Below are positions 5,660-20,872 of a stretch of 64,000 nucleotides of DNA, piece by piece (positions within the stretch are counted from its first letter, which is position 1; each line of letters starts with the position of its first letter). The translations under genes were made by a program, and so were the position numbers. The notes below the pieces were generated by a model that ran no database searches, was not told where the DNA came from, and saw only the letters and a list, made by a program, of their open reading frames with translations. The DNA lies in contig NZ_CP094459.1 of assembly GCF_022809715.1 (NCBI RefSeq), forward strand, positions 186,001 through 250,000, given 5' to 3'. Source of the stretch: Burkholderia pyrrocinia (lineage in GTDB: Bacteria; Pseudomonadota; Gammaproteobacteria; Burkholderiales; Burkholderiaceae).

Positions 5660-7231
5660 ATGGCTGCCATCCCGTCTTCCTCGACCGCAGTCGATGCCCG
5701 CACGCTGACCGATGCGCAGCAAGCCTTGCTCGCGCGCCTGCACGCGTATTCCCCCGACGACCCGAACGCGCCGCTGCCGTACAGCCGGCGCCTCGCCGAC
5801 GCCGAAGGATGGTCGCACGAGCACGCGCTGGCCGTGATCGACGAATACAAGCGCTTCGCGTTTCTCGCGCAGGCGGCCGGGCACCCGGTCACGCCGTCGG
5901 TCGCGGTCGATGCCGCGTGGCATTTCCACCTGCAATACACGCTCGAATACTGGGACGTCTTCTGCGCCGGTGTGCTGCGCGCGCGGCTGCATCACATGCC
6001 CGGCACGGGCGCGCCGGACGAAGCCGCCGTGTACGCGCAGCGCTATCGCGACACGCTCGACAGCTATCGACGGCTGTTCGGCCGCGAGCCGCCGGAGTCG
6101 ATCTGGCCACCTGCGGACCTGCATGCCGCGCCCGGATCGCCGCAGCCGGACCTGCCGGCCGCGGACGAGCCGGTCGAACCGGATTCGCCGGCCGCCCCGC
6201 CGGCCGGCAGGACCTGGCGCAACCGGCTGCCGAAGCTCGTGTGGCCGGCGGCCGCCGCGAGTGTCGCCGCGACCTGCGCATCGGCGCAGGACTTCGACGT
6301 GCTGGACTACACAGGGCCGCAGTTTCTCGCGTTCTACGTGCCGGCCTGCATCGTCGCGTTGCTGCTGATCGTGGGCCTGCAACAGATCGAGTATCGCTAC
6401 CGGCGCTGGGGCGCGCGCGCTCGCGAAGCACCGTCGAACCTGACGGTCGAGGAAGTCGCGTATCTCGCCGGAGACGAATCGAGGGCTGTGCAAGTCGCGA
6501 CGCTGTCGCTCATCCAGGCGGGCGCGATCGACCTGAGGATGGCGGGGCGACTGGGCGCGCGCGTGCAGAGCATCGACGTGACGCGCGCCGGCGCATATGC
6601 GGACGAATGCTACTGGCTGGATGGGCAACCGGGCGGGGAGGCCAGCTTCGGCGCGTTCCGGCAGCTTCTGGCGCGTCGGTTCTCCGAATATGCGGATTCG
6701 TTGCGCAACTGCGGCTGGTTTTGGGCGCCCGGCGAGATGCGGACGGCGCGCATGGCCGCGCGCACGATTGCGCTGCTGGTGCTCGGCACGGGCGCGGCGA
6801 AACTGGCGGTCGGGCTGAGTCGAGGGCGGCCGGTCCTGTTGCTCGTCATCTGCATGGCGGCGTTCGCGATCGCATACTGCTTCGTCGCGCGGCGCCTGAC
6901 CGGATTCGGGCGCGGCGGCCTGACGGTGGGTGGGAAGGCGTCGCTTGACGCATACCGGAGCGCACGCCGCGGCGAGTCCGATTCGCCGGACGAGTCGCTC
7001 TGGGCTGCCGCGCTGTTTGGTGCGGGAGCGTTGGCCGGCACCGCGTGGGCCGTGCATTCGAGTGCGCTGATGGAGCCGCCGCCGTTGATGCGGGCCACGA
7101 TGGCGGCGCGTACGGGCGGTTCGGATTCGTCCGGCAGCAGCGGCTCGTCGTCGAGCTGCGGTTCGTCGAGTTCGTGCAGTTCCAGCTCATGCGGTTCGAG
7201 CAGTTGCGGCGGGTGCTCGTCGAGCAATTGA
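5660..7231 (+). CDS. TIGR04222-like membrane protein with Ser/Gly/Cys-rich tail
   Basis: A 523-residue protein of unknown function. Residues about 20-165 form a soluble domain containing AAWHFHLQYTLEYWDVFC, a His-rich motif like those in glycine-rich-domain proteins. Hydrophobic segments follow near residues 193-208, 214-238, about 370-415 and 450-475, so the middle is membrane-embedded. The C-terminus is a low-complexity tail of Ser, Gly and Cys (SSGSSGSSSSCGSSSSC and similar). This layout fits the TIGR04222 family as I know it (inference without a profile search). The repeated Cys tail suggests a modified or metal-binding segment, but no function can be assigned. It stands alone between the tRNA and the glycosylation island. 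Confidence 0.65.
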   Translation: MAAIPSSSTAVDARTLTDAQQALLARLHAYSPDDPNAPLPYSRRLADAEGWSHEHALAVIDEYKRFAFLAQAAGHPVTPSVAVDAAWHFHLQYTLEYWDVFCAGVLRARLHHMPGTGAPDEAAVYAQRYRDTLDSYRRLFGREPPESIWPPADLHAAPGSPQPDLPAADEPVEPDSPAAPPAGRTWRNRLPKLVWPAAAASVAATCASAQDFDVLDYTGPQFLAFYVPACIVALLLIVGLQQIEYRYRRWGARAREAPSNLTVEEVAYLAGDESRAVQVATLSLIQAGAIDLRMAGRLGARVQSIDVTRAGAYADECYWLDGQPGGEASFGAFRQLLARRFSEYADSLRNCGWFWAPGEMRTARMAARTIALLVLGTGAAKLAVGLSRGRPVLLLVICMAAFAIAYCFVARRLTGFGRGGLTVGGKASLDAYRSARRGESDSPDESLWAAALFGAGALAGTAWAVHSSALMEPPPLMRATMAARTGGSDSSGSSGSSSSCGSSSSCSSSSCGSSSCGGCSSSN

Positions 7232-7578
7232 GCGCGAATGGTGCGGCGTGTGTGGGTGAGGGCGGGTTGGCCGGATCGAGGCGACGCTGCTGCGGAAGTC
7301 GACCCCGGGACGCCGTGATGGAACAGCGGGCGCCTGCCGCCGGGCGCCGAAGGCAAGTCCATTTCGATGCCGGCCCTATCCTGGCAGTTGACTCGGGATC
7401 AGACCAGCCTCATCGACAGAACAGAAGTCAGAACGCCGTTCTTATTCGTTGTCGGTTGTTGTCGCGTGCTTCCTATACTGCATCGTCCATGATCGCGGCC
7501 GATGTGCCGCGTCGTTTCCCCGTTCCTGCCAGGCGGCCCAGGCATCGAGCCGCGGCGCCGGCACACTTGCGATCGCGA
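7232..7578. other. 347-bp intergenic region with a candidate promoter
   Basis: No convincing gene on either strand. A possible sigma-70 promoter, TTGTCG at 7449-7454 and TATACT at 7474-7479 (19-bp spacer), precedes the acyltransferase gene. It would give a leader of about 90 nt. That fits the downstream ATG at 7579 better than the ATG at 7490. Confidence 0.4.
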
Positions 7579-8322
7579 ATGAACGTTACGACCTCCGACG
7601 ACTGTATTGGCGTGTTGCCCGACCATCCGTGGGCGAAGCATTTCATTGTGCTGGGCTACCGGGATGGTGCCGTTTCGTCTATTCCAAACAATTTCTTCCG
7701 CGACTGGCTCGACGAAGAGGCGCAGGTCGGCACCTTTCATATCGGCCGTTGCTCGGGGCTTGGTGTGGGCTCGATCGTGAAGTACGACCAGGGCCATCAG
7801 AAACTCGTGATCGGCAAGAACGTGGCCGGCGGAATGCGCCTGCGTTTCCTGCTGAACGGTCAGCACGAGATGCGCACCATTTCCACGAGCATGTTCAGCA
7901 TTTACGGTAACGGCCTCGTAAACGCGCCGATGCCGCAATACGCGGATACCGTGATTCACAACGACGTCTGGATCGGCGATGAAGCGCTGTTCCTTGGCGG
8001 TAGCCAGATCGAGAGCGGATGCGTGATCGGCGCACGGGCCGTCGTTCCGCCCAATTTCCGCACCGAGGCTTACGGGATCTATGCGGGTTCGCCGGCCCGT
8101 CTGGTTCGCTTCCGCTTCACGGAGAAAGTGCGCGAACAACTGCTGCAGCTCGCGTGGTGGGATATGCCGCTCGACTGGATCAAGCAGAACAACGACGCAT
8201 TTCTTGTCGATCTCACCGCCGACGAAGGGCGTGCGCTCGACACCCTCGCGGCGCTCAAGGAGGCCAAGGACCGTGCTGTAAGCACGTCCGGGCACCCGGC
8301 CGCTGCACCGACCGCCATCTGA
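7579..8322 (+). CDS. CatB/Vat-type hexapeptide acetyltransferase
   Basis: A 247-residue left-handed parallel beta-helix protein of the xenobiotic acetyltransferase (XAT/CatB) type. The central part carries hexapeptide repeats (for example HNDVWIGDEALFLGGSQIESGCVIGARAVV). The family signature YGIYAGSPARLVRFRF follows, and then a C-terminal helical tail. NVAGGMRLRFLLNGQHEM matches the active-site loop, with the catalytic-type His in GQHEM. It probably transfers an acetyl or other acyl group from acyl-CoA to a hydroxyl or amine, perhaps on a sugar of the island. The gene looks less GC-rich than its neighbours, which hints at separate acquisition. It is followed 36 bp later by the TPR-glycosyltransferase. 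An ATG at 7490 would add 30 residues that look unlike the family. Confidence 0.75.
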   Translation: MNVTTSDDCIGVLPDHPWAKHFIVLGYRDGAVSSIPNNFFRDWLDEEAQVGTFHIGRCSGLGVGSIVKYDQGHQKLVIGKNVAGGMRLRFLLNGQHEMRTISTSMFSIYGNGLVNAPMPQYADTVIHNDVWIGDEALFLGGSQIESGCVIGARAVVPPNFRTEAYGIYAGSPARLVRFRFTEKVREQLLQLAWWDMPLDWIKQNNDAFLVDLTADEGRALDTLAALKEAKDRAVSTSGHPAAAPTAI

Positions 8323-8358
8323 CCGTCCGTTCGCGATGCGGGCACATCGCCGCATGAC

Positions 8359-10308
8359 ATGATGTCTGCTTCCGACGATTCCGCGCCCGTTCAACAAGCC
8401 GCGACCCTGTGCCAGGACGGACGGTTCGCCGACGCACTGTCGCTCGTCGCGCCGCTGCTCGACGCGCCGGCGCCGGACGTTGCGGCGCTGCACGTCGCAG
8501 CCGTCTGCGCGCTCGGCCTGAACCGGCTGGCCGACGCGGAGGCCTGGTGGCGGCGGGCGATCGACGCGATGCCGGTGTTCGATCCGCCATACGACGGCCT
8601 CGACGCGCTGCTCGTGTCGCAGGGGCGGCTGCCCGAAGCCGAGGCGATCGTCCGCCGGCAGCTCGCTTCCGTCACGCCGTTGCGTGCATCTCACCATCAC
8701 CGGCTCGGCAAGGTGCTCGAAGCGCTCGGCCGGCTCGACGAAGCCGAACAGGCGTTCGGGCAGGCGCTGCTGATCGAGCCGCAGTCCGCCGACGTGCTGA
8801 CCGATCTCGGCAACGTGCTGCGCGTTCTCGGCCGGCCGGCCGAGGCGGAACTCGCGTACCGGCTCGCGATTGCGGTTCGCGCCGACCACGCGCTAGCGCA
8901 CGCGAATCTCGGCGCGATCCTCATCGACATGCAGCGGCTGCCGGAAGCGGAAGCGGCGAGCCGGCAGGCGCTCACGTTTTGCCCGGACCATCCGGAAGCG
9001 CATTACAACCTCGGCATCGCGCTGCAGAATCTCGATCACCTGCCCGAAGCGGAGGCGGCCTATCGCGATGCGATCCGTTGCCGCCCCGGCCTGCCGCAGC
9101 CGCACAACAATCTCGGCTGCGTCCTGCGCGCGCAGGGCCGCCACGACGAAGCGACGGCCGCGTTCAGCGACGCGCTCGCGCTCGCGCCGCAGATGGCCGA
9201 AGCACATTACAACCTGGGCACGACGTTCGAGCATGCCGGCCGCCACGACGACGCCGAACGCGCGTACCGCCGCGCGCTCGAGCTGCGCGCCGACTATGGC
9301 GATGCCCGTTTCGGGCTGGCGACGCTGTTGCTCGGCCTTGGCCGGTTCGAGGAAGGCTGGCGCCGCTACGAATCGCGCTACGAGCTGTCGGCGTTCGTGC
9401 ATCGCCGGACGCGCGAGGTGCTGCGGTGCGCGCAGTGGCAAGGCGAGCCGCTCGCCGGCAAGACGCTGCTCGTCTGGCAGGAAGACGGCCTCGGCGACAT
9501 GCTGCAGTTCAGCCGCTATTTCGCGGAATTTCGCGCGCGGCACGCGGCGCGCGTGGTCTTCGCGTGCCAGCCCGCGCTGCATCGGCTGATGGAGACGGTC
9601 GACGGCGTCGACGAAGTGCTCGATCACGATGCGGCCGCGGCGCGTGTGCAGGAATTCGACTACTGGACAAGCCTGCTGAGCGCGCCGCTGCACGTCGGTA
9701 CGACGCTCGACACGATCCCGCCGCCGGTGCGGCTCGTGCCCGATCCCGCCCGCGTCGCACGCTGGCGCACGCGCCTCGATGCGCTGCCGGCCGGCCCGCG
9801 CGTCGGGCTCGTGTGGAAGGGCAACCCGAAGCATCACAACGATGCGCACCGCTCGCTGCCGTCGCTGGCTTTGCTGACGCTGTTGTGGAGCGTTTCAGGC
9901 GTGAATTTCGTGAGCCTGCAGAAGGGGCAGGGCGAGGACGAGGCGCGCGATCCGCCGGGCGGGCTGCCGTTGCTGCATCTCGGCTCGGAGATCGACGACC
10001 TCGCGGATACCGCTGCGATCGTCGCGCAGCTCGATCTCGTGGTGTGCGTCGATACGTCCACCGCGCATCTGGCCGCATCGCTCGGCAAGCGTTGCTGGGT
10101 GCTGCTGCCGAATCAGGACGTCGACTGGCGCTGGATGCACGACCGCGACGATTCGCCGTGGTATCCAGGCACGGTGCGGCTGTTTCGGCGTGGGCGCGAC
10201 GAGAACTGGATTCAGGTGGCCGAGCGCGTGCGCGGGGCGTTTGCGGCGTATTTTGGAGCGAACGACGTGCCGTCTTGCGCGTTCGTGGAGACCGGTGGCA
10301 AGCGTTGA
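8359..10308 (+). CDS. TPR-repeat glycosyltransferase (GT9/heptosyltransferase-like C-terminus)
   Basis: A 649-residue two-part protein. Residues about 10-335 form tandem tetratricopeptide repeats with the recurring pattern A-x-Y-N-L-G-x-x-L-x-x-x-x-x-x-x-E-A, for example AEAHYNLGTTFEHAGRHDDA. From about residue 370 a two-lobed transferase domain follows. It contains LVWQEDGLGDMLQFSRYF, RVGLVWKGNPKHHNDAHRS and VVCVDTSTAHLAASLGK, the last being typical of GT9-like enzymes. It probably glycosylates a protein, with the TPR part holding the acceptor. Together with the OGT-type enzyme at 16.3 kb it gives the island two unrelated TPR-glycosyltransferases. A second ATG lies directly after the first. 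Confidence 0.82.
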   Translation: MMSASDDSAPVQQAATLCQDGRFADALSLVAPLLDAPAPDVAALHVAAVCALGLNRLADAEAWWRRAIDAMPVFDPPYDGLDALLVSQGRLPEAEAIVRRQLASVTPLRASHHHRLGKVLEALGRLDEAEQAFGQALLIEPQSADVLTDLGNVLRVLGRPAEAELAYRLAIAVRADHALAHANLGAILIDMQRLPEAEAASRQALTFCPDHPEAHYNLGIALQNLDHLPEAEAAYRDAIRCRPGLPQPHNNLGCVLRAQGRHDEATAAFSDALALAPQMAEAHYNLGTTFEHAGRHDDAERAYRRALELRADYGDARFGLATLLLGLGRFEEGWRRYESRYELSAFVHRRTREVLRCAQWQGEPLAGKTLLVWQEDGLGDMLQFSRYFAEFRARHAARVVFACQPALHRLMETVDGVDEVLDHDAAAARVQEFDYWTSLLSAPLHVGTTLDTIPPPVRLVPDPARVARWRTRLDALPAGPRVGLVWKGNPKHHNDAHRSLPSLALLTLLWSVSGVNFVSLQKGQGEDEARDPPGGLPLLHLGSEIDDLADTAAIVAQLDLVVCVDTSTAHLAASLGKRCWVLLPNQDVDWRWMHDRDDSPWYPGTVRLFRRGRDENWIQVAERVRGAFAAYFGANDVPSCAFVETGGKR

Positions 10309-10497
10309 ATGTCGCGACGACCGCAACGCGCCGGCCGGCCCTTCGCGCGAGCACCGGGAATTACCCGCCTTTGCCGAATCTGTTCGTCGTTTCGAATCGA
10401 TCGCGCGTCGCTAGAATCAACGCGTTTTCGGGGCAACGTCCGACCGGCAGTATCGGGCACGTGTTCCCGTCATGCATGACATCGACCAAGGCCGGCC

Positions 10498-11280
10498 ATG
10501 AATAACTGGAAGTTTGTCCCTGTTGAAAGCCTCGTGAGCGAGGAAGCGCTCGCGCGCGCGCAAGCGTTCGATCTCGATCGCCACGTCGTCGAGACGACGG
10601 TGCGCGGGCTCACGTTCCGCTGGCTCGCGCCGAGCAAGCGACTGTTGTGGATGGCGGCGGGTCTCGAATACATCGAACCGGAACTGCTGGACTGGATCGA
10701 CCGGTTGCCGCCCGCATCCGTCTACTACGATTTCGGCGCGAGCAACGGGATCTTCGCGCTGTATGCCGCAAAGCGCGGCCTGAAGGTGATCGCGATCGAA
10801 CCCGATCCGTCGAACTACTTCCTGCTGTCGTGGAACGCGTACCTCAACGCGCAGGACGGGCTCGACATCCAGGCGTTCAACGTGGCGGCTTCCGACCGGT
10901 TCGCGATCGACCAGCTGTACATCCGCAAGATGGAACTCGGCGCGCACGAGAAGATCGTCGGCCAGCCGTCGCTGGTGTCCGGCGAAACGTTCGCGCCGAA
11001 CCACGTGCATGCGATCCAGGTCGTCCACTTCGATCGCTGGCGCGAGCAGTTCGGTCTGCCGCAGCCCGAGTACGTCAAGATCGACGTCGACGGGCACGAG
11101 GTTCCGCTCATTGACGGCGCGACACAGGGACTGGGCGCGTGCAGGCAACTGCTGATCGAGATCGAGGACGCGAAGATGGACCTGCTCACACGCCGTCTCG
11201 GCGAGCTCGGTCTGACGATCGCGAGCAAGCATCCGGTGCAGAACTACGCGGGATTGTGGAACTGCATCTTCGTGCGCTGA
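10498..11280 (+). CDS. FkbM-family SAM-dependent methyltransferase
   Basis: A 260-residue class I methyltransferase. Motif I is SVYYDFGASNGIFALYAA. Motif II is LKVIAIEPDPSNYFLL, with the acidic residue that binds the SAM ribose. Later come DRWREQFGLPQPEYVKIDVDGHE and LLIEIEDA, the KIDVDGxE box typical of FkbM proteins. Family members O-methylate sugars, polyketides and other small molecules. Here it probably methylates a hydroxyl on the island's glycan. It lies 189 bp after the TPR-glycosyltransferase and converges on the PhyH gene. Confidence 0.85.
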   Translation: MNNWKFVPVESLVSEEALARAQAFDLDRHVVETTVRGLTFRWLAPSKRLLWMAAGLEYIEPELLDWIDRLPPASVYYDFGASNGIFALYAAKRGLKVIAIEPDPSNYFLLSWNAYLNAQDGLDIQAFNVAASDRFAIDQLYIRKMELGAHEKIVGQPSLVSGETFAPNHVHAIQVVHFDRWREQFGLPQPEYVKIDVDGHEVPLIDGATQGLGACRQLLIEIEDAKMDLLTRRLGELGLTIASKHPVQNYAGLWNCIFVR

Positions 11281-11287
11281 TCGCCGA

Positions 11288-11307
11288 GGCCCGCCGCAAC
11301 GCGGGCC
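11288..11307. terminator. hairpin between convergent genes, weak terminator
   Basis: GGCCCGC (11288-11294) and GCGGGCC (11301-11307) form a 7-bp stem with a 6-nt loop between the converging FkbM and PhyH genes. There is no T tract, so termination would have to be Rho-assisted. Confidence 0.35.
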
Positions 11308-11311
11308 GCGC

Positions 11312-12016
11312 TCAGAATCCCGACAGATAGACCTGCCGGTCGACGGCGGTACGGTAGGCGCTGACGAATCCGCGATGGCTCCATTGATCGCACGAGAAAT
11401 CGTCGAAGCGGCACGACAGCGACAGTTTCCAGTCGGTGATGTCGCTGGTGAGTGTCCGGTGCACGAGATAGGGCGACATGAAGAGCACGTTCCCTGCGTC
11501 GATCTCGAGGTCGCAGGCGCCGTCGATCTCCTGGTCGTCGAGCACGTAGCCGCGATCGGTCTGCTCGCCAGGCCACAGTCCGCGCCGATGGCTGCCCGGG
11601 ACGATGCGCAGTCCCGGCGCTCCTTTGCGCACATCGGCGATCGACGTCCATGCGATCACGCCGCGAGAGGACGTTCCCATGCTCGGCCAGTCCTGGTGAT
11701 ACGGCAGCCCGTAGTTGTTGCCGATGCGATCGTTCGCCGTGTAGTGGGTGACGATCGGGCCCGTCTGCACCGGCATCGCGATGCCGAGATGGCGGTCGAG
11801 CGCGGCAGTCAGCTCGGGGGAGCAGAAGAAGCGCTTCACGTCGATATCCTCGGCGAGCAGCTTGATGATGTTGCGGTTGCGCATCGCGTCGTCGCCGAAT
11901 CGCGGAATGAAATGCCGCTCGAACTTCGTCCGCACGACGTGCATCAGCGATTGCAGCGCATTGTTCGCGACGATCGCGTAACCGAGTTCCCGAAAATCGC
12001 CAGCGATCACATCCAT
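11312..12016 (-). CDS. phytanoyl-CoA dioxygenase (PhyH)-family Fe(II)/2-oxoglutarate enzyme
   Basis: A 234-residue protein. The facial triad is visible as HQD in LPYHQDWPSMG (His107, Asp109) and VHRT (His186). LRIVPGSHRRG is the usual PhyH core loop. It probably hydroxylates, or otherwise oxidises, a C-H bond of a small molecule using Fe(II), O2 and 2-oxoglutarate. Its ATG overlaps the end of the beta-propeller gene by 10 nt, so the two are translationally coupled. It is the last gene of the six-gene minus-strand operon starting at 16114. In this setting the substrate is likely a sugar or its acyl group; that is inference only. Confidence 0.8.
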   Translation of the reverse strand: MDVIAGDFRELGYAIVANNALQSLMHVVRTKFERHFIPRFGDDAMRNRNIIKLLAEDIDVKRFFCSPELTAALDRHLGIAMPVQTGPIVTHYTANDRIGNNYGLPYHQDWPSMGTSSRGVIAWTSIADVRKGAPGLRIVPGSHRRGLWPGEQTDRGYVLDDQEIDGACDLEIDAGNVLFMSPYLVHRTLTSDITDWKLSLSCRFDDFSCDQWSHRGFVSAYRTAVDRQVYLSGF

Positions 12017-12984
12017 TCCGTCTCACCCTGTATTCCGCTGCCGACCTGCGCTTGCGCGTAACCGAAGCCGGTCGCGCCGAAGCCGTCGCCGTTGTAGAAC
12101 ATGTACAGGCGCTCGCCGACCTGCACGACTTCGGGATACGCGACCATGAACCCGTCCCAGCCGCTCGGCGACACGTCGAGCCCCGCATCCTCGTCACGTC
12201 GCCGCCAGGCGATGCCGTCGGTCGATTCGGCATAGCCGATCCGGTAGCTGACCGACGAGCGCTCGCGGTAGCCGTCGTGGCTGCGCTTGCAGAACCACAT
12301 CCGGTAAAGGCTGCCGTCGAAATGGACCGATGCGCGTGCCAGTCCGCCTTCGTGGTCGTCGAGGTAGTCGATCGCGACGCGGCCGCCGCGTGTCCAGTGA
12401 ATGCCGTCGCGCGATTCCGCGTATTTCAGGTGATAGCGCGCCTCGGGCTTGCCGTCGACCAGCGTCCAGCCGGTGCACGACAGATACCAGTTGCGCCAGA
12501 TTCCATGCTCGATCCGGACGCAGGTCGTGCCGCAGAAATACGGCTCGTCGGCCGTGCGGTCCATCACCGGCCCGTCGAACAGGCGCCGGTAGCGTCGGCC
12601 GCCGTCCTCGCTGATCGCGAGGCCCACTGCGTTGTGGTACGGAATCGTATTGCGCACGTTCCAGCCGATGTAATACAGATAGCGAACGCCGTCGTGCTCG
12701 ACGACCGACGACGGCATCGTGCCGCAATCGTCGAACGCGCCCAGCGCGCCCGGCGGCAGCACCGGTTCCGGATCGATGGAGACGATTTCGGCGGGCGCGC
12801 TTGCGCGGACGGCCATGCTCGCGATCGCGCTGCGATTACCAGCGTCGCGGCTGCTGAACAACAGTTGCAGCGTATCGCTGTCGACACCCGCTACCGTCGG
12901 AATCTGCGCGTGCGATTTCGCCCAGGGCAGCCGCGCATCGGGCGCATAGATCAGCCCCCGCTTGTCCCAATGTAAGCCTGCCAC
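12007..12984 (-). CDS. five-bladed beta-propeller protein, GH43/GH32-like fold
   Basis: I place the start at a GTG (12984) with AGGAGA 5 nt upstream and 8 bp after the preceding stop, giving 325 residues. The sequence repeats blade-like elements: LAISEDGGRRYRRL, YHLKYAESRDGIHW, YRIGYAESTDGIAWRRR and PEVVQVGERLYMFYNGDG. The W-S/D-x-D-G type motifs recur as in GH43/GH32/GH130 propellers and in the propeller domain of some glycosyltransferase-associated proteins. I cannot identify a complete glycosidase triad with confidence. Such proteins occur in surface-glycan clusters without a firm function. It might bind or trim the glycan. It is coupled to PhyH downstream and closely follows the acyltransferase. 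Confidence 0.65.
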   Translation of the reverse strand: MAGLHWDKRGLIYAPDARLPWAKSHAQIPTVAGVDSDTLQLLFSSRDAGNRSAIASMAVRASAPAEIVSIDPEPVLPPGALGAFDDCGTMPSSVVEHDGVRYLYYIGWNVRNTIPYHNAVGLAISEDGGRRYRRLFDGPVMDRTADEPYFCGTTCVRIEHGIWRNWYLSCTGWTLVDGKPEARYHLKYAESRDGIHWTRGGRVAIDYLDDHEGGLARASVHFDGSLYRMWFCKRSHDGYRERSSVSYRIGYAESTDGIAWRRRDEDAGLDVSPSGWDGFMVAYPEVVQVGERLYMFYNGDGFGATGFGYAQAQVGSGIQGETEWM

Positions 12985-12992
12985 GGGCTCTC

Positions 12993-13652
12993 CTAGATCT
13001 TCAGGTCGGTGCTGGCCATTGCGAGCTTGACGGCGGGATTGCCCTTGTACACCGACCAGGGTTCGGTCGATTTCGTGATCGCGGATGCCATCGTGACGAA
13101 CGTGCCTTCGCCGATCGTCACGCCGTCGCGCAGCGTGGCGTTCACGCCGACGAAGCTGTACGCGCCGATATCGCAATGACCGGACATGACGACATGCGAG
13201 GTCATCGTCACGTGATCGCCGACGCGCCCGTGATGCCCGATATGGTTGCCGCTCCACAGCACGACGTTGTTGCCGATGGTCGTGAACGGCTGCAGCGTGT
13301 TGTCTTCGAGGATGAAGCAGTTCTCGCCGATCGTGTTGTGGCAGACGGTCGCGCGCGAGCTGACATAGCTGATCAGCGAATAGCCGCGGGCCTTGAGCTC
13401 GTTGAAGATCTTTTCGCGCTCGCGGTTCATCCGCTTCGGCGACATCGGCGCGAAGAAGCTGAACTCGCCGGGCGGGTGGGACTCGACGACGTCCTCGAAC
13501 GCGATCACGGGCAGGCCCTTGAACGTGCCGCTTTCCGGCAGGTACTGCCGGTTCACGCAGAACGCGGCCACCGTATGCGGCGAATCGTGCTCGAGGTAGT
13601 AGTGCGCGAGTTCCGCATAATCCTGCAGGCCGAACAGAATGACGTTTGCCAT
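12993..13652 (-). CDS. NeuD/PglD-type sugar O- or N-acyltransferase
   Basis: A 219-residue protein. The N-terminal Rossmann-like domain (about 1-85) begins MANVILFGLQDYAELAHYYL, and a left-handed beta-helix follows (about 95-200). The latter includes NCFILEDNTLQPFTTIGNNV, WSGNHIGHHGRVGDHV and the C-terminal loop YKGNPAVKL. His residues in NHIGHHGRV match the catalytic His of NeuD/PglD enzymes, which acylate amino sugars. It directly follows the methyltransferase, whose stop and this ATG overlap as TGATG. The family normally acetylates or otherwise acylates the amino group made by a DegT aminotransferase, and one is encoded three genes upstream. Open frame extends upstream but belongs to a shadow of the neighbour. 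Confidence 0.83.
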   Translation of the reverse strand: MANVILFGLQDYAELAHYYLEHDSPHTVAAFCVNRQYLPESGTFKGLPVIAFEDVVESHPPGEFSFFAPMSPKRMNREREKIFNELKARGYSLISYVSSRATVCHNTIGENCFILEDNTLQPFTTIGNNVVLWSGNHIGHHGRVGDHVTMTSHVVMSGHCDIGAYSFVGVNATLRDGVTIGEGTFVTMASAITKSTEPWSVYKGNPAVKLAMASTDLKI

Positions 13653-14287
13653 CAGTTGTGCTCCCTGTACACGTACGTCGTGTACTCGTACAGCCCGTAG
13701 TCGTGCCGCAGTACGTAGTGGCGCGACAGCTCGCGCGACAGGAAGTGCGTCAGCTGCGTGACCGGTACATGGAACAGGTCGTCGCGCTCCCAGTCGACTT
13801 CCTTCGACATCACGTTGAACGCGATGCCCTTGCGCGCCTTCGGGAACACGACGCGCAGCACGCGCGAGAAATAGTCGAACATCTCGTCGTAGCCGAGCTC
13901 GCGCTTCTCGGTGAAGACGCCGTTCATCACGATGTAGTCGTATTCGCCGAGCCGGTCGGGCTCCGCGAGCACGTCGACGCACTGGTAGGCGTTGTCCGGA
14001 TACTTGCGTCGGGACAAGTCGCAGAACGCCGGGGACGCATCGAGCCCGGCATAGCGCAGGCCGTCGACGCCGTGGTCCAGCATGTACTGGTACAGATGCG
14101 ACGCCCCGCAGCCGAAATCGAGCAGCGTGGCGGGCGCCGAGCCGGGCTTCACCAGGTCGAGCATCACGCGATATCGCGTGTCGGCGTCCTCGGCATTGGG
14201 CCAGTCCACGCCGCGATGCGTATCGCCGTGACGCTCGAGGCACGACTCGTAGTGACGGATGAGGGTGTTATGAAGATCGTCTTTCAT
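13652..14287 (-). CDS. SAM-dependent methyltransferase (class I)
   Basis: A 211-residue protein. Motif I is TLLDFGCGASHLYQYML, followed by LRYAGLDASPAFCDLSRRKY and EYDYIVMNGVFTEKRE, typical of small class I methyltransferases. Its ATG overlaps the WbqC stop by 4 nt (ATGA), and its stop overlaps the next ATG. It is therefore locked into the aminotransferase-WbqC-methyltransferase-acyltransferase unit. The acceptor is unknown; an N- or O-methylated sugar, or a methylated acyl group, would fit the context. The start at 14287 was chosen from this coupling; longer upstream frame overlaps WbqC and has no family-like sequence. Confidence 0.82.
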   Translation of the reverse strand: MKDDLHNTLIRHYESCLERHGDTHRGVDWPNAEDADTRYRVMLDLVKPGSAPATLLDFGCGASHLYQYMLDHGVDGLRYAGLDASPAFCDLSRRKYPDNAYQCVDVLAEPDRLGEYDYIVMNGVFTEKRELGYDEMFDYFSRVLRVVFPKARKGIAFNVMSKEVDWERDDLFHVPVTQLTHFLSRELSRHYVLRHDYGLYEYTTYVYREHN

Positions 14288-14994
14288 GACAGCGTGGCGC
14301 CAGCCAGCAGTTGGTCGATCGACGCGTCGTCGTTGCACATCAGCACGTCGATGATCGACAGCGCGGGAACGAATGCGCCGCGAACGGGCGTGTACGGCGC
14401 GAGTCCGGGTGTCAGGAACTTCAGCTGCAGGCCGGCGGCGGCGAAAGCGTGCGGGTCGTACAGTTCCTGCCCGCCGACCGGGTTCACGTAGATGTCCGCG
14501 TGCTCCTGCCGGCCGATGTCGATGATGCGCGCCTGGGCCTTCAGGTCCGCGTTCGCGTAGCGTCGCGACGTGGCGACGATGTTCGTGTCGAGCCGCAGGT
14601 GGTTGCGCAGCGTGATCAGGCCGTGCAGCAGGAAATCGGCGAGGTTGGGCGCGTCGTGCATCAGGATGCGTTCGACGACCGGAAACACGCGCGCGAAATG
14701 CGGCGAGCGTGCATAGCTCTGATGGATCGTGCGCAGGATCCGGGGCCGCCACGCCGCATCGTCCGCGACTTCGATATCGCAGATAAGCCGGTTCTGGCTC
14801 GCCTGCCGCAACGGCATGGTGATCATGTGCGGCGCGCCGTTGACGTTGATGCGGTTGCGATTGATCCAGCCGCGATTGATGAAGCTCACGTCGTCGAACA
14901 CGACGAACGTGTCGACGCTGGCCATCAACTGGAAATAGCCGACGTACGGGAAGAAGTACGGCTGCATGACCGCCAGCGTGCGTTCAGCTTGCAT
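14284..14994 (-). CDS. WbqC-family protein
   Basis: A 236-residue protein with the family signature at the N-terminus: LAVMQPYFFPYVGYFQLMASVD, then FVVFDDVSFINRGWINRNRI and MITMPLRQASQNRLI. Further conserved parts are YARSPHFARVFPVVERIL and the C-terminal YVNPVGGQELYD. WbqC proteins are common in O-antigen and flagellin-modification clusters and have no settled biochemical role. It overlaps the aminotransferase stop by 11 nt and the methyltransferase start by 4 nt, which suggests that its product acts on the aminotransferase product. Confidence 0.88.
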   Translation of the reverse strand: MQAERTLAVMQPYFFPYVGYFQLMASVDTFVVFDDVSFINRGWINRNRINVNGAPHMITMPLRQASQNRLICDIEVADDAAWRPRILRTIHQSYARSPHFARVFPVVERILMHDAPNLADFLLHGLITLRNHLRLDTNIVATSRRYANADLKAQARIIDIGRQEHADIYVNPVGGQELYDPHAFAAAGLQLKFLTPGLAPYTPVRGAFVPALSIIDVLMCNDDASIDQLLAGATLS

Positions 14995-16114
14995 GTTGCG
15001 TCAGGCTCGCCTCGGCCAGCACGATGTCGATGATCCGGTCCTGGTCGTGCGCGGTGAGCGCCGGGTAGATCGGCAGGCACAGCACCTGATGCGCGATTTC
15101 GCTGGCGACGGGCAGGTTCGAGCGTGCCGACGACGGCAGGCCGCGATAGGTCGGGAACTCGCTGATCAGCGGGTAGAAGTACCGGCGCGCCGCGACATTG
15201 TGCGCACGCAGCGCATCGTAGATCGCGTCGCGCGTCACGGGGAAGTCGCGGGTGATGCGCACCGGAAAATACGAATGATTGCGGGTGCTGTGCTCGGGAA
15301 CCGGGGGGAGCAGCAGGCCCGACACGTTTTTCAATGCCGCTCGATAGCGTTCATCCACGCGCGCGCGACCGTCCGCGATCCGGTCCATGTGCTGAAGCTG
15401 CAGCAGGCCGAATGCCGCCTGTACTTCGTTCATCTTGCCGTTGATGCCGGGGCCGATCACCGTCACTTCGTCGACGAAGCCGAAGTTCTTCAGATGATCG
15501 ATGCGGCGCTTCGTCTTCGCGTCGCGGCAGATGAGCGCGCCGCCCTCGAACGTGTTGAAGATCTTGGTGCCGTGAAAGCTGAGCACGGACATGTCGCCGA
15601 ATTCGAGCACCGAGCGGCCGTGGCGACGCACGCCGAATGCATGCGCGGCGTCATAGAGCACGCGCAGGCCGTAGGTGTCGGCGATCCGTTCGATCGCGTC
15701 GACGTCGCACGGGTAGCCGTAGACATGTACGGGCAGGATCGCGGTCGTCTGCGGCGTGATCGCCGCTTCGATGCGCGCGGCATCGAGATTCATGGTCACC
15801 GGATCGATATCGACGAAAACCGGGCGAATGCCGTTCCAGTGCAGCGCGTGCGTCGTGGCGACGAAGCTGAACGGCGTCGTGATGACTTCGCCGGTGATTT
15901 TCATCGCCTGCAGTGCGGTGATCAGCGCGAGCGTCGCGTTGGAAAACAGCGAAATATGCTCCACACCCAGGAATTCGCAGAGCGACCGTTCAAGCTCCGC
16001 ATGGAAGCGGCCGCCGTTGGTGACGATCTTGCTCTCCCAGATCTGGTTCAGATACGGGAGGAACTCGTCCAGCGGAGGCATGTAGGGCTGTGTGACGGGT
16101 ATGAGCTTGTCCAT
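14984..16114 (-). CDS. DegT/DnrJ/EryC1/StrS-family sugar aminotransferase
   Basis: A 376-residue PLP enzyme. The Schiff-base lysine is Lys184 in SVLSFHGTKIFNTFEGG. The PLP-ring Asp is Asp155 in VLYDAAHAFGV. VTNGGRFHAELE and PFSFVATTHALHWNGIRPVFVDID are standard family blocks. Such enzymes convert nucleotide-activated keto sugars to amino sugars, for instance dTDP-4-keto-6-deoxyglucose to dTDP-Qui4N. Published work on B. cenocepacia flagellin reported a Qui4N-derived sugar, so a VioA-like role is plausible but the regiochemistry (C3 or C4) is not visible. It opens the tightly overlapping six-gene operon. No dTDP-sugar dehydratase (rmlB) is in the window, so the substrate must be made elsewhere. 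Confidence 0.88.
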   Translation of the reverse strand: MDKLIPVTQPYMPPLDEFLPYLNQIWESKIVTNGGRFHAELERSLCEFLGVEHISLFSNATLALITALQAMKITGEVITTPFSFVATTHALHWNGIRPVFVDIDPVTMNLDAARIEAAITPQTTAILPVHVYGYPCDVDAIERIADTYGLRVLYDAAHAFGVRRHGRSVLEFGDMSVLSFHGTKIFNTFEGGALICRDAKTKRRIDHLKNFGFVDEVTVIGPGINGKMNEVQAAFGLLQLQHMDRIADGRARVDERYRAALKNVSGLLLPPVPEHSTRNHSYFPVRITRDFPVTRDAIYDALRAHNVAARRYFYPLISEFPTYRGLPSSARSNLPVASEIAHQVLCLPIYPALTAHDQDRIIDIVLAEASLTQHAS

Positions 16115-16299
16115 GATGCTGTCCCGAAGTCGTACGTCTCGAGCGCAAATGCGCACACCGGTGATCGTGAGAACACTCTAGCGGGTGCGACGCCCGGCTG
16201 ATCGGCCGAGCAGGAGGCGGTTTGCGAGTCAATTCGCGGTAATGCCGCCGCTCGCTCGCCGGGCCGGCCGGTCGCGCCGCATGCAACCGGCCCGTGCGT

Positions 16300-18654
16300 T
16301 CAGCCGGCCGCTTCGTGGACGAGCATCGAGGTCGGCCGGTCGGGCAGGACCGCATCGAACGAGACCGGCGCATCGCCCGCGCACCAGCGGCGCCACATCA
16401 TCCGCAACGCGACCGACAGCCCCTGCGCGACGACGTCGGGATGGAACGGCGCCGACGCTAGGCAGCGGTCGCGCAGGCCGCTGCGCAGCGTCTGCAGCAT
16501 GTCGGGATCGTCGGCGAGCGCGATCGCCTTGCGGACGAACTCGTCCTTGTCGTGCGCAATGAAGGCGTCGAGATCGACCCGCTTGAGCCAGCTTGCGGAG
16601 CCGCGGGTCGGGATCGAAAACCCGGCGAGCGTCACGGTCGGCACGCCCATCCACAGCGCGTTGAGCGTCGTCGTCGAGCCGGCGTACGGGAACGTGTCGA
16701 GGCAAATGTCGACGCGATGATGCTGCTGCAGATAAACGGGGATGGTCGCGCGCGGCTGGAACGTCAGGCGCGCGGGATCGATGCCTTCGGCCGCAAACCA
16801 GCCGGCGATCGTGTCGCGATCGCGATCCTGCTCGATCGCGCCGATCACCATCCGCGCGTCGGGCTTCGCGCGCAGCACCGCGGCCCACAGCGCGATCACG
16901 TCCTGGCGCAGCTTGTTGAGCCGGTTGAAGCTGCCGTAGGTGACGTAGCCGTTGTGCAGCGCAGGCAAGCCGTTGACGGGCGGGCAGTTCGCCGGCGGCG
17001 AGTACGGCGCGAGCGCGGGCATGCGCACGATTTTCTCGACGAACTGGTCGTCCAGCTCGCCGGCCGGCGTGACGATGCTGTCACTGAGGTAGTAGTCGAT
17101 CGTGCTCATGCCGGTCGTGCCCGGGTAGCCGATCCACGATGCCTGCAGCGGCGCGGGTTTGCGTGCGAGCGCGACCAGGCGGTTGCGGCCGGTGTGACCG
17201 GAGAGATCGATCAGGATATCGATGCGATCGTTGCGGATCTGTTCGGCGAGCGCGGCGTCGCCCAGCGTCGTCACGGTTTTCCACGTGGTGGCGTGCGCAC
17301 GCAGTTTGGCGGTGACGTGATCGTCGATCACGAAGTTGTAGTAGAAGTGCAGCGATAGATTCGGGTCGCGGCTCAGGTGTTCGACGACGGGCAGCAAGTA
17401 GTGCGCGACCGCGTGGTTCAGCAGGTCGCCGGACACGAAGCCGATCCGCAACGCGCGCTCGGGGTCGCGAGAGTTGGCGTAATTTTTCGGCAGTACGTGT
17501 CTTTCGTGCCGTTTGCCGAATGCGCGATGTTCGTCGAGCAACATCTGCGGCGTGTTGGTGTCGTCGTGAATCAGGCTGAACAGCAGCGAACTGTGCGACA
17601 CGCTGTCGTTCGGATCGATTTCGATGGTGCGCCGCAGCCAGGGAACCGCTTCCTGCGCGGCGCCCTGGTCCAGCAGCACGAAGCCGAGTGCCCCGTTGGG
17701 CGATGCCGCATGCGGCGCCAGTTCCACCGCGCGTCGGCATGCCGCGACGGCTTCCTGCTGGCGCCGCAGCCCGTGCAACGCGATGCCGAGAATCCGGTGC
17801 GCCTCCACATTCGTCGCTTGTGCGGCAATGATCAGGCGGCATTGGGTTTCCGCTTCCTGGAGCCGGGTCATGAGTCGCAGCGTATCGGCGAGCAGCGTCC
17901 GCAACAGGAGGTCGCCGGGAAAGCCTTCAAGTGCGCGATAGGCGATATCGATCATCTCGGCGTATTGCAGGTCTCTGTAAAGCGAGACCGCAAGGGCACG
18001 CAGGCACGCGGCGTCGTCCGGATATTCGGCGACGAGTCGCCGCGCGAGCGCGAGCGCTTCCGCCGATCGTTTCTTGTCGAAGAGTCCGGCGTGCTTCTGC
18101 AGCTTGTGCAACGGCGCTTTGCGCACGGGGCCGGCGGGGACGTCGCCGTTGGTGCTTTCGTGGGGCGCGTTCCGGGACGAAATATTCAGCGTGATGCCGG
18201 CCGGGCTGCCCGGGCCGGCGGCGGGTGCCGTGGGAAACGTCGCGGTGGGCGTTGCCATTTGCGAGATCAGGCCGTCCAGTGCGGGGCCGTGTACGCCGCG
18301 CTGCTGTGCCATTTCGACGGCGATCCATGCGGCAGGTGCCTGGTCCGCCCGGTACAACGCGTTGATGTAGCTGACCCAGCATTGGCCATTGCCGGGATTT
18401 TCCCCGAGCGCGATCTCGAAGTGCGGAATCGCGTCGGCCGGCTGCCCGGCGTCGACCAGCAGCACCGCGAGGTTGTAGTTCGCTTCCGCGTGTCCCGGGA
18501 CGGCATCGAGGATCGCGTCATACAGCGCTTTCGCATCGTCGAACGCGCCGTCGTGATGGCGCTCGATGGCATTCTGCATGACGAGTGCGATATCTTGCTC
18601 GAACTGCTGCTCCGGGCTGAGCGTGGCGCGATCGGACGAGTCGAGTGGAAGCAT
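16300..18654 (-). CDS. TPR-containing O-GlcNAc-transferase-like (GT41/SPINDLY) protein glycosyltransferase
   Basis: A 784-residue protein if read from the ATG at 18654; no clear ribosome-binding site is visible there. The N-terminal half contains TPR repeats (for example HAEANYNLAVLLVDAGQPADAIPHF). The C-terminal half is an OGT-type catalytic domain with LRIGFVSGDLLNHAVAHYLLP, IDILIDLSGHTGRNRL, PLQASWIGYPGTTGMSTIDYYLSD and YVTYGSFNRLNKLR. The last is the usual sugar-nucleotide-binding region. It is the gene nearest to fliT/fliD and on the same strand. A glycosyltransferase linked to the flagellin cluster is reported to glycosylate flagellin in B. cenocepacia, and this is the best candidate here. 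Confidence 0.85.
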   Translation of the reverse strand: MLPLDSSDRATLSPEQQFEQDIALVMQNAIERHHDGAFDDAKALYDAILDAVPGHAEANYNLAVLLVDAGQPADAIPHFEIALGENPGNGQCWVSYINALYRADQAPAAWIAVEMAQQRGVHGPALDGLISQMATPTATFPTAPAAGPGSPAGITLNISSRNAPHESTNGDVPAGPVRKAPLHKLQKHAGLFDKKRSAEALALARRLVAEYPDDAACLRALAVSLYRDLQYAEMIDIAYRALEGFPGDLLLRTLLADTLRLMTRLQEAETQCRLIIAAQATNVEAHRILGIALHGLRRQQEAVAACRRAVELAPHAASPNGALGFVLLDQGAAQEAVPWLRRTIEIDPNDSVSHSSLLFSLIHDDTNTPQMLLDEHRAFGKRHERHVLPKNYANSRDPERALRIGFVSGDLLNHAVAHYLLPVVEHLSRDPNLSLHFYYNFVIDDHVTAKLRAHATTWKTVTTLGDAALAEQIRNDRIDILIDLSGHTGRNRLVALARKPAPLQASWIGYPGTTGMSTIDYYLSDSIVTPAGELDDQFVEKIVRMPALAPYSPPANCPPVNGLPALHNGYVTYGSFNRLNKLRQDVIALWAAVLRAKPDARMVIGAIEQDRDRDTIAGWFAAEGIDPARLTFQPRATIPVYLQQHHRVDICLDTFPYAGSTTTLNALWMGVPTVTLAGFSIPTRGSASWLKRVDLDAFIAHDKDEFVRKAIALADDPDMLQTLRSGLRDRCLASAPFHPDVVAQGLSVALRMMWRRWCAGDAPVSFDAVLPDRPTSMLVHEAAG

Positions 18655-18795
18655 GGCGGGGGACGCGGTTATTCGGTGTTTATCATTATCAGTAACGTGC
18701 GGTCGCGCCGAACTCGCGAGATGGTGCCAAAAGCGCGGCCAATTCCATCGATTGGACAGGGATGACGCGGCGGAGCGGCGACATACCGGATGCAC

Positions 18796-18821
18796 AAAAA
18801 AACGCCCGCACGAGGCGGGCG
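18796..18821 (-). terminator. intrinsic terminator after fliT
   Basis: On the minus strand the stem CGCCCGC/GCGGGCG (18815-18821 with 18803-18809, 5-nt loop) is followed by seven T. It separates fliC-fliD-fliT transcription from the island. Confidence 0.85.
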
Positions 18822-18906
18822 GAGGCGAACGAGCACGCCCTCACATCAGCGCGTAGTTCTTGTTGTCGGGTTGGCGCGCGCAGGTTGGCGCGGCGTTTGC
18901 GGTGCG

Positions 18907-19206
18907 TTAGCGGCTCGCGACGTTCTGGTACTGGCCGACGGCCTGCACGCGGCCCATCGCCGCCTGGTATTCGTCGGTCAGCTCCTGCTGCGCGCGTTGC
19001 GCGTCGGCGAAGATACGTTCGTTGCTGGCCTGCATGCGGCGGATCGCGGCGATACCGGCCGGCGGCTGGTCGGCCGCGAGCAACGCGACGAGCGGCTCGC
19101 GCGCGTCGACGAGGCGTGTCGCCTCGATCCAGTCGGCCATCGATGCCGCATGTTCGATCGCATCGGTGAGCGCGTCGAGCTTCGCGATCAGTTCGGTCTG
19201 TTCCAT
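18907..19206 (-). CDS. fliT: FliT-like flagellar export chaperone
   Basis: A 99-residue, almost entirely helical protein (MEQTELIAKLDALTDAIEHAASMADW...). It sits 25 nt after fliD on the same strand, the usual position for FliT, the cytoplasmic chaperone of the cap protein FliD. In enterics it also inhibits FlhDC (known of the family). It is a little shorter than E. coli FliT (121 residues). Similarity at the sequence level is low, as usual for this family, so the call rests on size, helicity and position. An AGGAG lies 8 nt before the ATG, and a terminator follows. Confidence 0.78.
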   Translation of the reverse strand: MEQTELIAKLDALTDAIEHAASMADWIEATRLVDAREPLVALLAADQPPAGIAAIRRMQASNERIFADAQRAQQELTDEYQAAMGRVQAVGQYQNVASR

Positions 19207-19231
19207 CGTGGCTCTCCTGTCCGGCCGGCGG

Positions 19232-20740
19232 TCAGCCCTTGTTGTTCGACATCGCGCCGGCGCTGTTCGCGCCGCCGAACAGCTGCGTCAGGTACTGCGA
19301 GTTGCTGTTCATCGTCGCCATCAGCGTGTTGAGCGCGGTGAACTGCGCCTGGTACTGCTTGGTCAGCTGTGCCGCGTAGTTCGACAGGTTCGTCTGCTGC
19401 GTCGTGACGCTCTTCAGGTCGTTGCTGAGCGCCGTCGTGCGCGCGGCGATCAGCCCGTTCGTCTTCGTGTAATTCGTAATGTTCGTCGTCAGCTGCTCGC
19501 CGATTCCGTTCGTCGAGTTGAACAGCGACGCGACGCCCGACGGGTTGCTCTGCAGCGCGGTGTTGAGCGTCGTGCTGTCGGTCTTCAGCGTGCCGTCGGC
19601 CTGCAGCGTGACGCCGATCGACGCGAGGTTGATCGTCGAGCCGTTGTTGTTCACGCCGCTCGCGACGATCGACGCAAGCGAGTTCTTGATCGTGTTCAGC
19701 GTCGAATCGCCGAGCAGCGGGCCTTGCGACGACGCGCCGGACGTGAAGCTCGACAGCGAGCCCATCGTCGTGACGAGCGTGTTGTAGAGCGTCACGAAGT
19801 TGTTGACCGCGGCGGCCTGGGTTTTCGTATCGGTGGCGACCGTCAGCGTCTGGGTCTGGTTCGCGTTGACGGCGGCCGTGGTCAGGTTCAGCGTGACGCC
19901 GGTGATCGCGCTCGTCACGGTGTTGCTCGCGCTCGTGCCGGCGATGCCGTTGATCGTGAACGCAGCGTCCTGCGCGGCCGTGCTCTGCTTCCACGCGGCG
20001 CTGCCGTTCGCGGACGTGAACGTCGACTGGCCGCCCGTCGTGCTGGCCGTCGACGTGACGCCGAGGCTGGACAGGCCGTTGTCGCCGGACACGTTGCTGA
20101 GCGCGACGCTGATCGTGTTCGCCGCGCCGGTCGGCGTCGAGCTGAGCACGAGGTGCGCGCCGTCGCTGCCGTTGACGACCGATGCGACGATGCCCGGGTT
20201 GCCGGCCGTGCTGTTGATCGCAGCGGCGATGCCGGACAGCGTGTTGTTCGTGCTGTTGACGTCGACCGTGAACGACTGGCTGCCGAGCGACAGCGTCATC
20301 GTGCCGGTGCCGAGCGCCGTCGACGAACCGAACGCGGCCGACGACAGCGACTGCGACGTCGCGATCTGCGTGACGCCGACCGAATAGCTGCCGGCGACGG
20401 CGCCGGCGCCGGCGGTCGCGGTAAGGCCGGTGCCGCTCGCGGTCGCGGTGAAGGTGTTCTGCAGCGAGCCGTTCGACAGCGTCGTGAGGCTGGTCTGCAG
20501 CGCGCTCAGCGCGGCCGAAAGGGCGCCGTACGCGGAAATCTGGGTGTTGTCGCTGGCCTGCTTCGCGTTGAGCGCGGCGCTTTGACCGGCGGTCTTCGCA
20601 TTGACGAGCGCCGTCACGAGCGAGTTGACGTCCATCGACGAGTTGCCGGTCGAACCGCTGATGATCGATTGCGCGGCTTGCTGCAGCTGGCTGTTGGCCG
20701 CGTTGGTGGCGGAATTGACGGCGGAATTGATCGTCGACAT
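19232..20740 (-). CDS. fliD: flagellar filament cap protein FliD (HAP2)
   Basis: A 502-residue, Ser/Thr/Ala/Asn-rich secreted protein. Its N-terminal region contains DVNSLVTALVNAKTAGQSAAL and ISAYGALSAALSALQTSL. These match the FliD N-terminal coiled-coil domain. The C-terminus (LIAARTTALSNDLKSVTTQQTNLSNYAAQL and the Gln-rich stretch after it) matches the FliD C-terminal domain. It caps the growing filament and folds incoming flagellin. The central variable region is rich in Thr and Ser, which would be targets if the cap were also glycosylated. It lies between fliC and fliT on one strand, and GGAG stands before its ATG. Confidence 0.95.
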   Translation of the reverse strand: MSTINSAVNSATNAANSQLQQAAQSIISGSTGNSSMDVNSLVTALVNAKTAGQSAALNAKQASDNTQISAYGALSAALSALQTSLTTLSNGSLQNTFTATASGTGLTATAGAGAVAGSYSVGVTQIATSQSLSSAAFGSSTALGTGTMTLSLGSQSFTVDVNSTNNTLSGIAAAINSTAGNPGIVASVVNGSDGAHLVLSSTPTGAANTISVALSNVSGDNGLSSLGVTSTASTTGGQSTFTSANGSAAWKQSTAAQDAAFTINGIAGTSASNTVTSAITGVTLNLTTAAVNANQTQTLTVATDTKTQAAAVNNFVTLYNTLVTTMGSLSSFTSGASSQGPLLGDSTLNTIKNSLASIVASGVNNNGSTINLASIGVTLQADGTLKTDSTTLNTALQSNPSGVASLFNSTNGIGEQLTTNITNYTKTNGLIAARTTALSNDLKSVTTQQTNLSNYAAQLTKQYQAQFTALNTLMATMNSNSQYLTQLFGGANSAGAMSNNKG

Positions 20741-20793
20741 CGTGTTGCTCCGTGCGGCGGATGATCCGTGAAATGCTGGGTGAAGACCTGGCT

Positions 20794-20857
20794 GCGGGGC
20801 GAAGCCCCGCGCGCCAAGCGTTTGCGGCCGGGCCGCGCGTTACGCGGGGCCCGGCCG
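20794..20857 (-). terminator. two strong hairpins between fliC and fliD
   Basis: GCGGGGC-GAA-GCCCCGC occupies 20794-20810. A longer GC-rich hairpin pairs 20825-20834 with 20848-20857 and extends inward after one mismatch (20836-20839 with 20843-20846). Neither has a T tract. They may attenuate or stabilise fliC mRNA, so that flagellin is made in excess over fliD. Confidence 0.6.
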
Positions 20858-20872
20858 TCGGTTGCTACGCGA

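Follow-up and report, generated by a model that had tools for sequence, protein, structure and literature searches.

Which glycan is made by the genes that stand beside fliT, fliD and fliC in Burkholderia pyrrocinia, and to what is it attached? The window analysed here, that is 64,000 nucleotides of contig NZ_CP094459.1 (positions 186,001 to 250,000, assembly GCF_022809715.1) from a genome of 7.69 Mb on three contigs, holds ten genes between the gene of a Ser/Cys-tailed protein (5660-7231) and fliT. An earlier note on this DNA had counted nine, although its own list comprised ten, and had taken them for a single island decorating flagellin. We consider it probable (about 0.6) that this is a flagellin locus with an exchanged, portable sugar cassette, in which a WbqC protein would act as ligase and an aminoacylated 4-amino-4,6-dideoxyglucose (Qui4N) would be put on flagellin. 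The previously noticed gene families and flagellar reading hold; the points added here are the portability of the cassette and the prediction of an amino-acid ligase.

Translation and family scans of the window, in which Pfam and NCBIfam profiles were judged against curated cut-offs, recovered every gene family that the earlier note had named. Three genes are read forward (a left-handed beta-helix (LbH) acyltransferase, a tetratricopeptide repeat (TPR)/GT9-like gene and FkbM) and seven in reverse (PhyH, a propeller, a NeuD-type LbH acyltransferase, a methyltransferase, WbqC, DegT and a TPR-GT41 gene). The gene of the FkbM-family methyltransferase (10498-11280, plus strand; TIGR01444, 68 bits, cut-off 37.7) converges with the minus-strand genes of the cassette. 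These encode a PhyH-type dioxygenase (11312-12016; PF05721, 46.2 bits, cut-off 22; HxD at residue 107; 61 relatives), a five-bladed propeller with a GH130-like fold in a predicted model (12007-12984), a NeuD/PglD/VioB-type acyltransferase (12993-13652; TIGR03570, 146.9 bits, just under the cut-off of 160.8; PDB entry 7txp, VioB, among its matches), a class-I S-adenosylmethionine-dependent methyltransferase, hereafter MT (13652-14287; PF08242, 37.4 bits, cut-off 30), WbqC (14284-14994; PF08889, 222 bits against a gathering score of 21.3) and a VioA-like DegT sugar 4-aminotransferase (14984-16114; PF01041, 342.6 bits). The tight overlaps reported before are real: in the run of six genes PhyH to DegT, neighbours either overlap or leave a gap of no more than 8 bp; the gap between DegT and the GT41 gene is 185 bp.

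The comparison with other Burkholderia flagellar loci that had been proposed as a check was run on the stretch behind fliD in 60 genomes besides the window's, using the window proteins and a rule-based sort; FliD was present in all 61 genomes including the window's own. None of the 60 sibling loci carries the window's cassette, and other glycan gene sets are found there: a divergent WbqC island (19), DegT with NeuD (11), only a gene resembling O-GlcNAc transferase (OGT) (6), DegT with other neighbours (5) or DegT-WbqC-323aa (5), the rest having none of these genes (10) or contigs that were too short (4). Relative to the sibling with the closest FliD (L038), the DNA between the window start and 10259 is 91-93% identical, 10260-15051 is devoid of matches of at least 120 bp at E 1e-10, and alignment identity amounts to 74% in DegT and 82% in 16373-20943. 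The position of the change is revealed at the protein level, where DegT and OGT are 66% and 59% identical, FliT and FliD 94% and 96%. The same gap is seen in L056, L029 and L043. What has been exchanged is the cassette from FkbM to DegT, a replacement relative to the siblings, and the presumed single island is not one unit, its LbH and TPR/GT9 genes being conserved in siblings. The propeller found no match in 64 other genomes of the genus, yet the protein database holds close relatives, at 91% from B. cepacia and B. cenocepacia and at 87% and 85% from B. multivorans; the cassette therefore seems to be strain-variable within Burkholderia. Its GC content at third codon positions (0.83-0.89) falls within the range of the surroundings (0.76-0.95), and composition thus gives no sign of foreign origin.

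Different cassettes occupy other sibling loci. DegT-WbqC-323aa is present in five of them (L050, 10452-15342; L011, L057 and, in part, L016 and L036), three of which also carry a GNAT gene, a PhyH-like gene and a methyltransferase. The L050-type 323-aa protein and GNAT are 35-36% and 28% identical to products of the Escherichia coli O123 cluster, which suggests that an acyl-alanyl-Qui4N flagellin sugar may be made there. L057 (genome G079) contains, beside its different cassette and near an LbH gene, a partial FkbM copy (7207-8013; 79% identity over 77%), perhaps the remnant of an earlier exchange. The 19 divergent islands (e.g. L006, L022, L023), with WbqC at 26-29% and DegT at 31-32% identity, lie near a second FliD type.

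Where else does the cassette occur? A search of species genomes with a propeller alignment (A1) yielded 232 relatives, and the analysis covered the 80 best loci. Being chosen by the propeller, they give tallies that are not natural frequencies, and genes are concealed by contig ends and by a simple gene caller, which gave no cluster to NeuD and MT of the window itself. By tblastn (E 1e-5), NeuD-type genes were matched in 66 of the 80 loci, DegT in 63, WbqC in 59, MT in 51, PhyH in 29, FkbM in 17, GT41-like genes in 11, TPR/GT9 in 10, fliD and fliC in 5 each, acyl1 in 3 and fliT in 2. Contiguous in the gene calls were NeuD-propeller (52 loci), DegT-WbqC (33), WbqC-MT-NeuD-propeller (25), DegT-WbqC-MT-NeuD-propeller (18) and the latter extended by PhyH (10), and four loci showed DegT-WbqC-NeuD-propeller without MT. 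The gene order is shared with other phyla, with hosts including Trinickia, Paraburkholderia, Variovorax, Methylobacter, Flavobacterium, Mucilaginibacter, Prosthecobacter, Paenibacillus and Vibrio. Paraburkholderia aspalathi (L066) has fliC-fliD-fliT-GT41-DegT-WbqC-MT-NeuD-propeller-PhyH, as in the window, without FkbM. Departures exist as well: three loci (L100, L116, L133) read DegT-GNAT-SDR-propeller, and seven (L120, L136, L138, L140, L141, L143 and L127) have a propeller with no DegT, WbqC or NeuD match.

The base sugar is indicated by DegT, which shares 58.0% identity with VioA of E. coli O7 across 367 residues, as befits an aminotransferase of the viosamine pathway. It missed the NCBIfam DesI equivalog (303.8 of 650 bits), and its best solved relative is 2po3 (DesI). 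Elsewhere in the genome RmlB scores over its cut-off (C1:864112); a second RmlB-like gene over cut-off (G000:C3:891763-892752) has a TAG within the match. In a Vibrio locus (L083) a gene labelled RmlA-like from its representative sequence immediately precedes DegT, and comparison of a Vibrio cassette stretch with E. coli gave vioA in all 15 matches listed (of 117 records).

What might WbqC contribute? In the predicted model its core adopts a fold like that of BshC (PF10079), an enzyme of the bacillithiol pathway. Moreover, WbqC is present in E. coli O121 and O123, which have aminoacyl-Qui4N, and absent from O7 and O116, which have the plain acetyl form. To our knowledge, no enzyme has been assigned to the step that puts amino acids onto Qui4N in O-antigens. 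Among the matches listed for WbqC with BshC or aminoacyl in open-licence PMC papers, none dealt with aminoacyl addition to Qui4N, and the main text of a paper on Plesiomonas shigelloides clusters (PMC6467956) held none of the terms sought. As judged from fold and distribution, WbqC is a predicted ligase that probably attaches an amino acid to the amino sugar. A record labelled E. coli O103 (NZ_CP193495.1, 1893763-1894479) has an O121-type WbqC gene and is possibly mislabelled.

For the chemistry we infer the following steps, as we do the identity of the amino acid and the acceptor. RmlA and RmlB, encoded elsewhere, would provide dTDP-4-keto-6-deoxyglucose, which DegT would convert to dTDP-Qui4N. 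WbqC, as an ATP-using ligase, would attach an amino acid at the 4-amino group, and this amino acid would be the target of acylation by the NeuD/VioB-type enzyme. Methylation and hydroxylation of the unit would fall to MT and, where present, to PhyH and FkbM; this nucleotide sugar or glycan is probably also what the GH130-like propeller acts on. Finally, while flagellin is still in the cytosol and has not been exported, TPR-GT41 would transfer the unit to its Ser/Thr residues. Such a glycan may be acylated, methylated and perhaps hydroxylated, as had been proposed earlier. A 3-hydroxybutyryl pathway inside the island was set aside, since the family scans of its proteins found no ketoacyl synthase (KAS), reductase or acyl carrier protein (ACP) family.

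The acceptor is suggested by the neighbours. The island is adjoined by fliT (18907-19206; PF05400, 23 bits, below the cut-off of 29.5, called by its position beside fliD), fliD (19232-20740) and the flagellin gene fliC (20873-22027; PF00669 and PF00700 over cut-off), all on the minus strand, the product of fliC being the presumed acceptor. Between cassette and fliT lies the candidate flagellin glycosyltransferase, an OGT/SPINDLY-like TPR-GT41 protein of the cytosolic protein glycosyltransferase kind (16300-18654, minus strand; PF13844, 151.9 bits), whose nearest solved relative is plant SPINDLY (7y4i). SPINDLY is a protein O-fucosyltransferase, i.e. it acts with a 6-deoxy sugar. Family scans of the island proteins revealed no export or polymerisation (transporter or polymerase) family, as expected for cytosolic flagellin glycosylation. 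Because fliT-fliD-fliC are neighbours in both the window and L066, TPR-GT41 is present and export and polymerisation families are missing, the assignment as a flagellin glycosylation locus is supported, with flagellin as the presumed acceptor. On these same grounds the flagellar reading of the earlier note stands, its interpretation as a whole being partly supported; what it had missed is the exchange, the order shared with other phyla and the probable role of WbqC. Flagellin sugars that carry amino acids are known from other bacteria, namely the pseudaminic acid (Pse) derivative Pse5Am7Ac8GlnAc of Campylobacter jejuni (PMC3958885) and phosphorylated N-methyl-L-threonine in Clostridioides difficile. 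A second flagellin (G000:C1:3467985-3468395) and a second FliD (G000:C3:125249-126742, 69% identical) are encoded elsewhere in the genome, not together.

Several points weigh against an aminoacylated flagellin sugar. fliD and fliC were not found in most of the 80 loci, hence the cassette as such is not flagellar. RmlA is assumed in the route, and the propeller is given no defined step. As to WbqC, a lone fold match is no proof of function. It gave no match to the BshC profile PF10079, the WbqC family being the only one at E 0.1 or better; a sequence link to BshC was also rejected by hhalign in both directions, a test that is shallow with its nine BshC sequences, and by hmmsearch of the PDB. 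Foldseek alone returned no significant match at E 0.001 and no BshC among the 50 matches listed. BshC itself is called a putative ligase in a review, and the O-antigen contrast covers four E. coli O types.

Could the product be a conventional Qui4N on flagellin, N-acylated with acetyl or 3-hydroxybutyryl and O-methylated by one of the methyltransferases, with WbqC as an acyl-handling helper and no amino acid? We regard this as unlikely. It would agree with the Qui4N(3-OHBut) listed for B. cenocepacia flagellin (PMC12355684), with the 11 of 60 sibling loci that have only DegT and a NeuD-type gene, and with the NeuD/VioB match near its cut-off, but it conflicts with the occurrence of WbqC in the two aminoacyl-Qui4N types and not in the two acetyl ones, with the missing KAS, reductase and ACP families, and leaves five further cassette genes unexplained. 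Still more improbable is that the cassette serves O-antigen or another surface polysaccharide and stands beside fliC by chance or through shared regulation. In other phyla it is often embedded in O-antigen-like clusters, and in 6 of 80 loci DegT comes immediately after Wzm- and Wzt-like genes (labels read from representative sequences); however, TPR-GT41 and fliT-fliD-fliC are adjacent in the window and in L066, fliD is matched within 5 of the 80 loci, and the island lacks transporter and polymerase families in the family scans.

The five-bladed fold of the propeller was confirmed with a predicted model whose closest folds are beta-1,2-mannoside phosphorylases (GH130), and R46, D85, R234 and D277 are invariant in 57 aligned sequences. 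It might be a GH130-like phosphorylase or a nucleotide-sugar transferase; a second sugar would then be added or exchanged, and the glycan would be at least a disaccharide. We hold this to be rather doubtful. GT108 offers a nucleotide-sugar transferase model for such a propeller, and 14 of 81 loci have, after the propeller, a gene interpreted as a GT2 glycosyltransferase. Against this, the GH130 match stays under the Pfam (21.4 of 26 bits) and NCBIfam (42.5 of 450) cut-offs. Plant-type glutaminyl cyclases are also five-bladed; this identity was set aside, the best fold matches being GH130-like. A single-sequence scan of the genome collection confirmed no propeller relative. Homologues in six loci (L120, L136, L138, L140, L141, L143) share a neighbourhood without DegT, WbqC or NeuD matches, and the propeller family therefore has a second context.

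The outer genes complete the locus. The hexapeptide, Vat/CatB-like LbH acyltransferase (7579-8322, plus strand; PF00132, NCBIfam Vat-like below cut-off) varies among siblings and is 86-97% identical in L014, L029, L038, L043, L045 and L051. The TPR protein with a GT9-like C-terminus (8359-10308, plus strand; TPR over cut-off, GT9 20.8 bits, cut-off 22) is conserved at 85-92% identity in many siblings. The 523-aa protein of 5660-7231, with a Ser/Cys/Gly-rich tail, has no Pfam match, and its aligned parts are 65-88% identical in many sibling loci.

With the WbqC fold and the contrast of O121/O123 with O7/O116, the aminoacyl-Qui4N question can be reduced to a single in vitro assay. The cassette also suggests that, across phyla, flagellin glycans and O-antigens draw on common sugar modules that can be interchanged; flagellin glycoforms (minimal DegT plus NeuD, O123-like, or the window's cassette) could thus be predicted from sequence. 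A tentative extension, less probable than the flagellin locus proposed above, is that WbqC proteins are widespread BshC-like amino-acid:amino-sugar ligases, within a mobile unit that is swapped between flagellin and O-antigen loci and makes 4-(aminoacyl)amino-4,6-dideoxyglucose with the amino-acid part methylated, hydroxylated or otherwise tailored; the GH130-like propeller would be a new enzyme of this unit, for tailoring or for transfer. A description of this gene set was not found in open-licence PMC papers, which is weak evidence of absence.

How does the locus compare with known systems? In B. cenocepacia, Hanuszkiewicz et al. reportedly linked a glycosyltransferase gene to the flagellin cluster in 2014. 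The Qui4N-type sugar that the earlier note ascribed to flagellin of this species, the same genus as the window's, is borne out by a review table (PMC12355684); there, the acyl group is 3-hydroxybutanoyl and the portion available does not mention a WbqC-MT-NeuD-propeller-PhyH cassette. The viosamine island of Pseudomonas syringae likewise combines a VioA-type aminotransferase, a VioB-type acyltransferase and a methyltransferase for a flagellin Qui4N sugar, but relies on vioS, vioR and acp to supply the acyl chain, and WbqC is not mentioned in the paper on it (PMC3927599); no vioS, vioR or acp family was found among the window's island proteins by family scans. BshC, with 540 residues in 4wbd, has further parts and no detectable sequence similarity to WbqC, and the window propeller differs from GH130 beta-1,2-mannoside phosphorylases in scoring below curated cut-offs and sitting in sugar-nucleotide clusters. 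The E. coli O121/Shigella dysenteriae 7 and O123 clusters share adjacent DegT and WbqC with the window (WbqC 35% and 43%, DegT 54% and 55% identical, respectively), but make O-antigen, have GNAT instead of the NeuD type and, in the stretches covered, lack an annotated propeller or PhyH. Finally, MT adjoining WbqC recalls N-methyl-bacillithiol, in which, according to PMC12719100 and PMC6336425, a methyltransferase acts on the cysteine amine. Together with the 2,4-dihydroxy-3,3,4-trimethylpyroglutamoyl viosamine of Vibrio anguillarum V-123, a methylated and hydroxylated aminoacyl group on an amino sugar, it would serve as a model for the aminoacyl part made by such a mobile unit.
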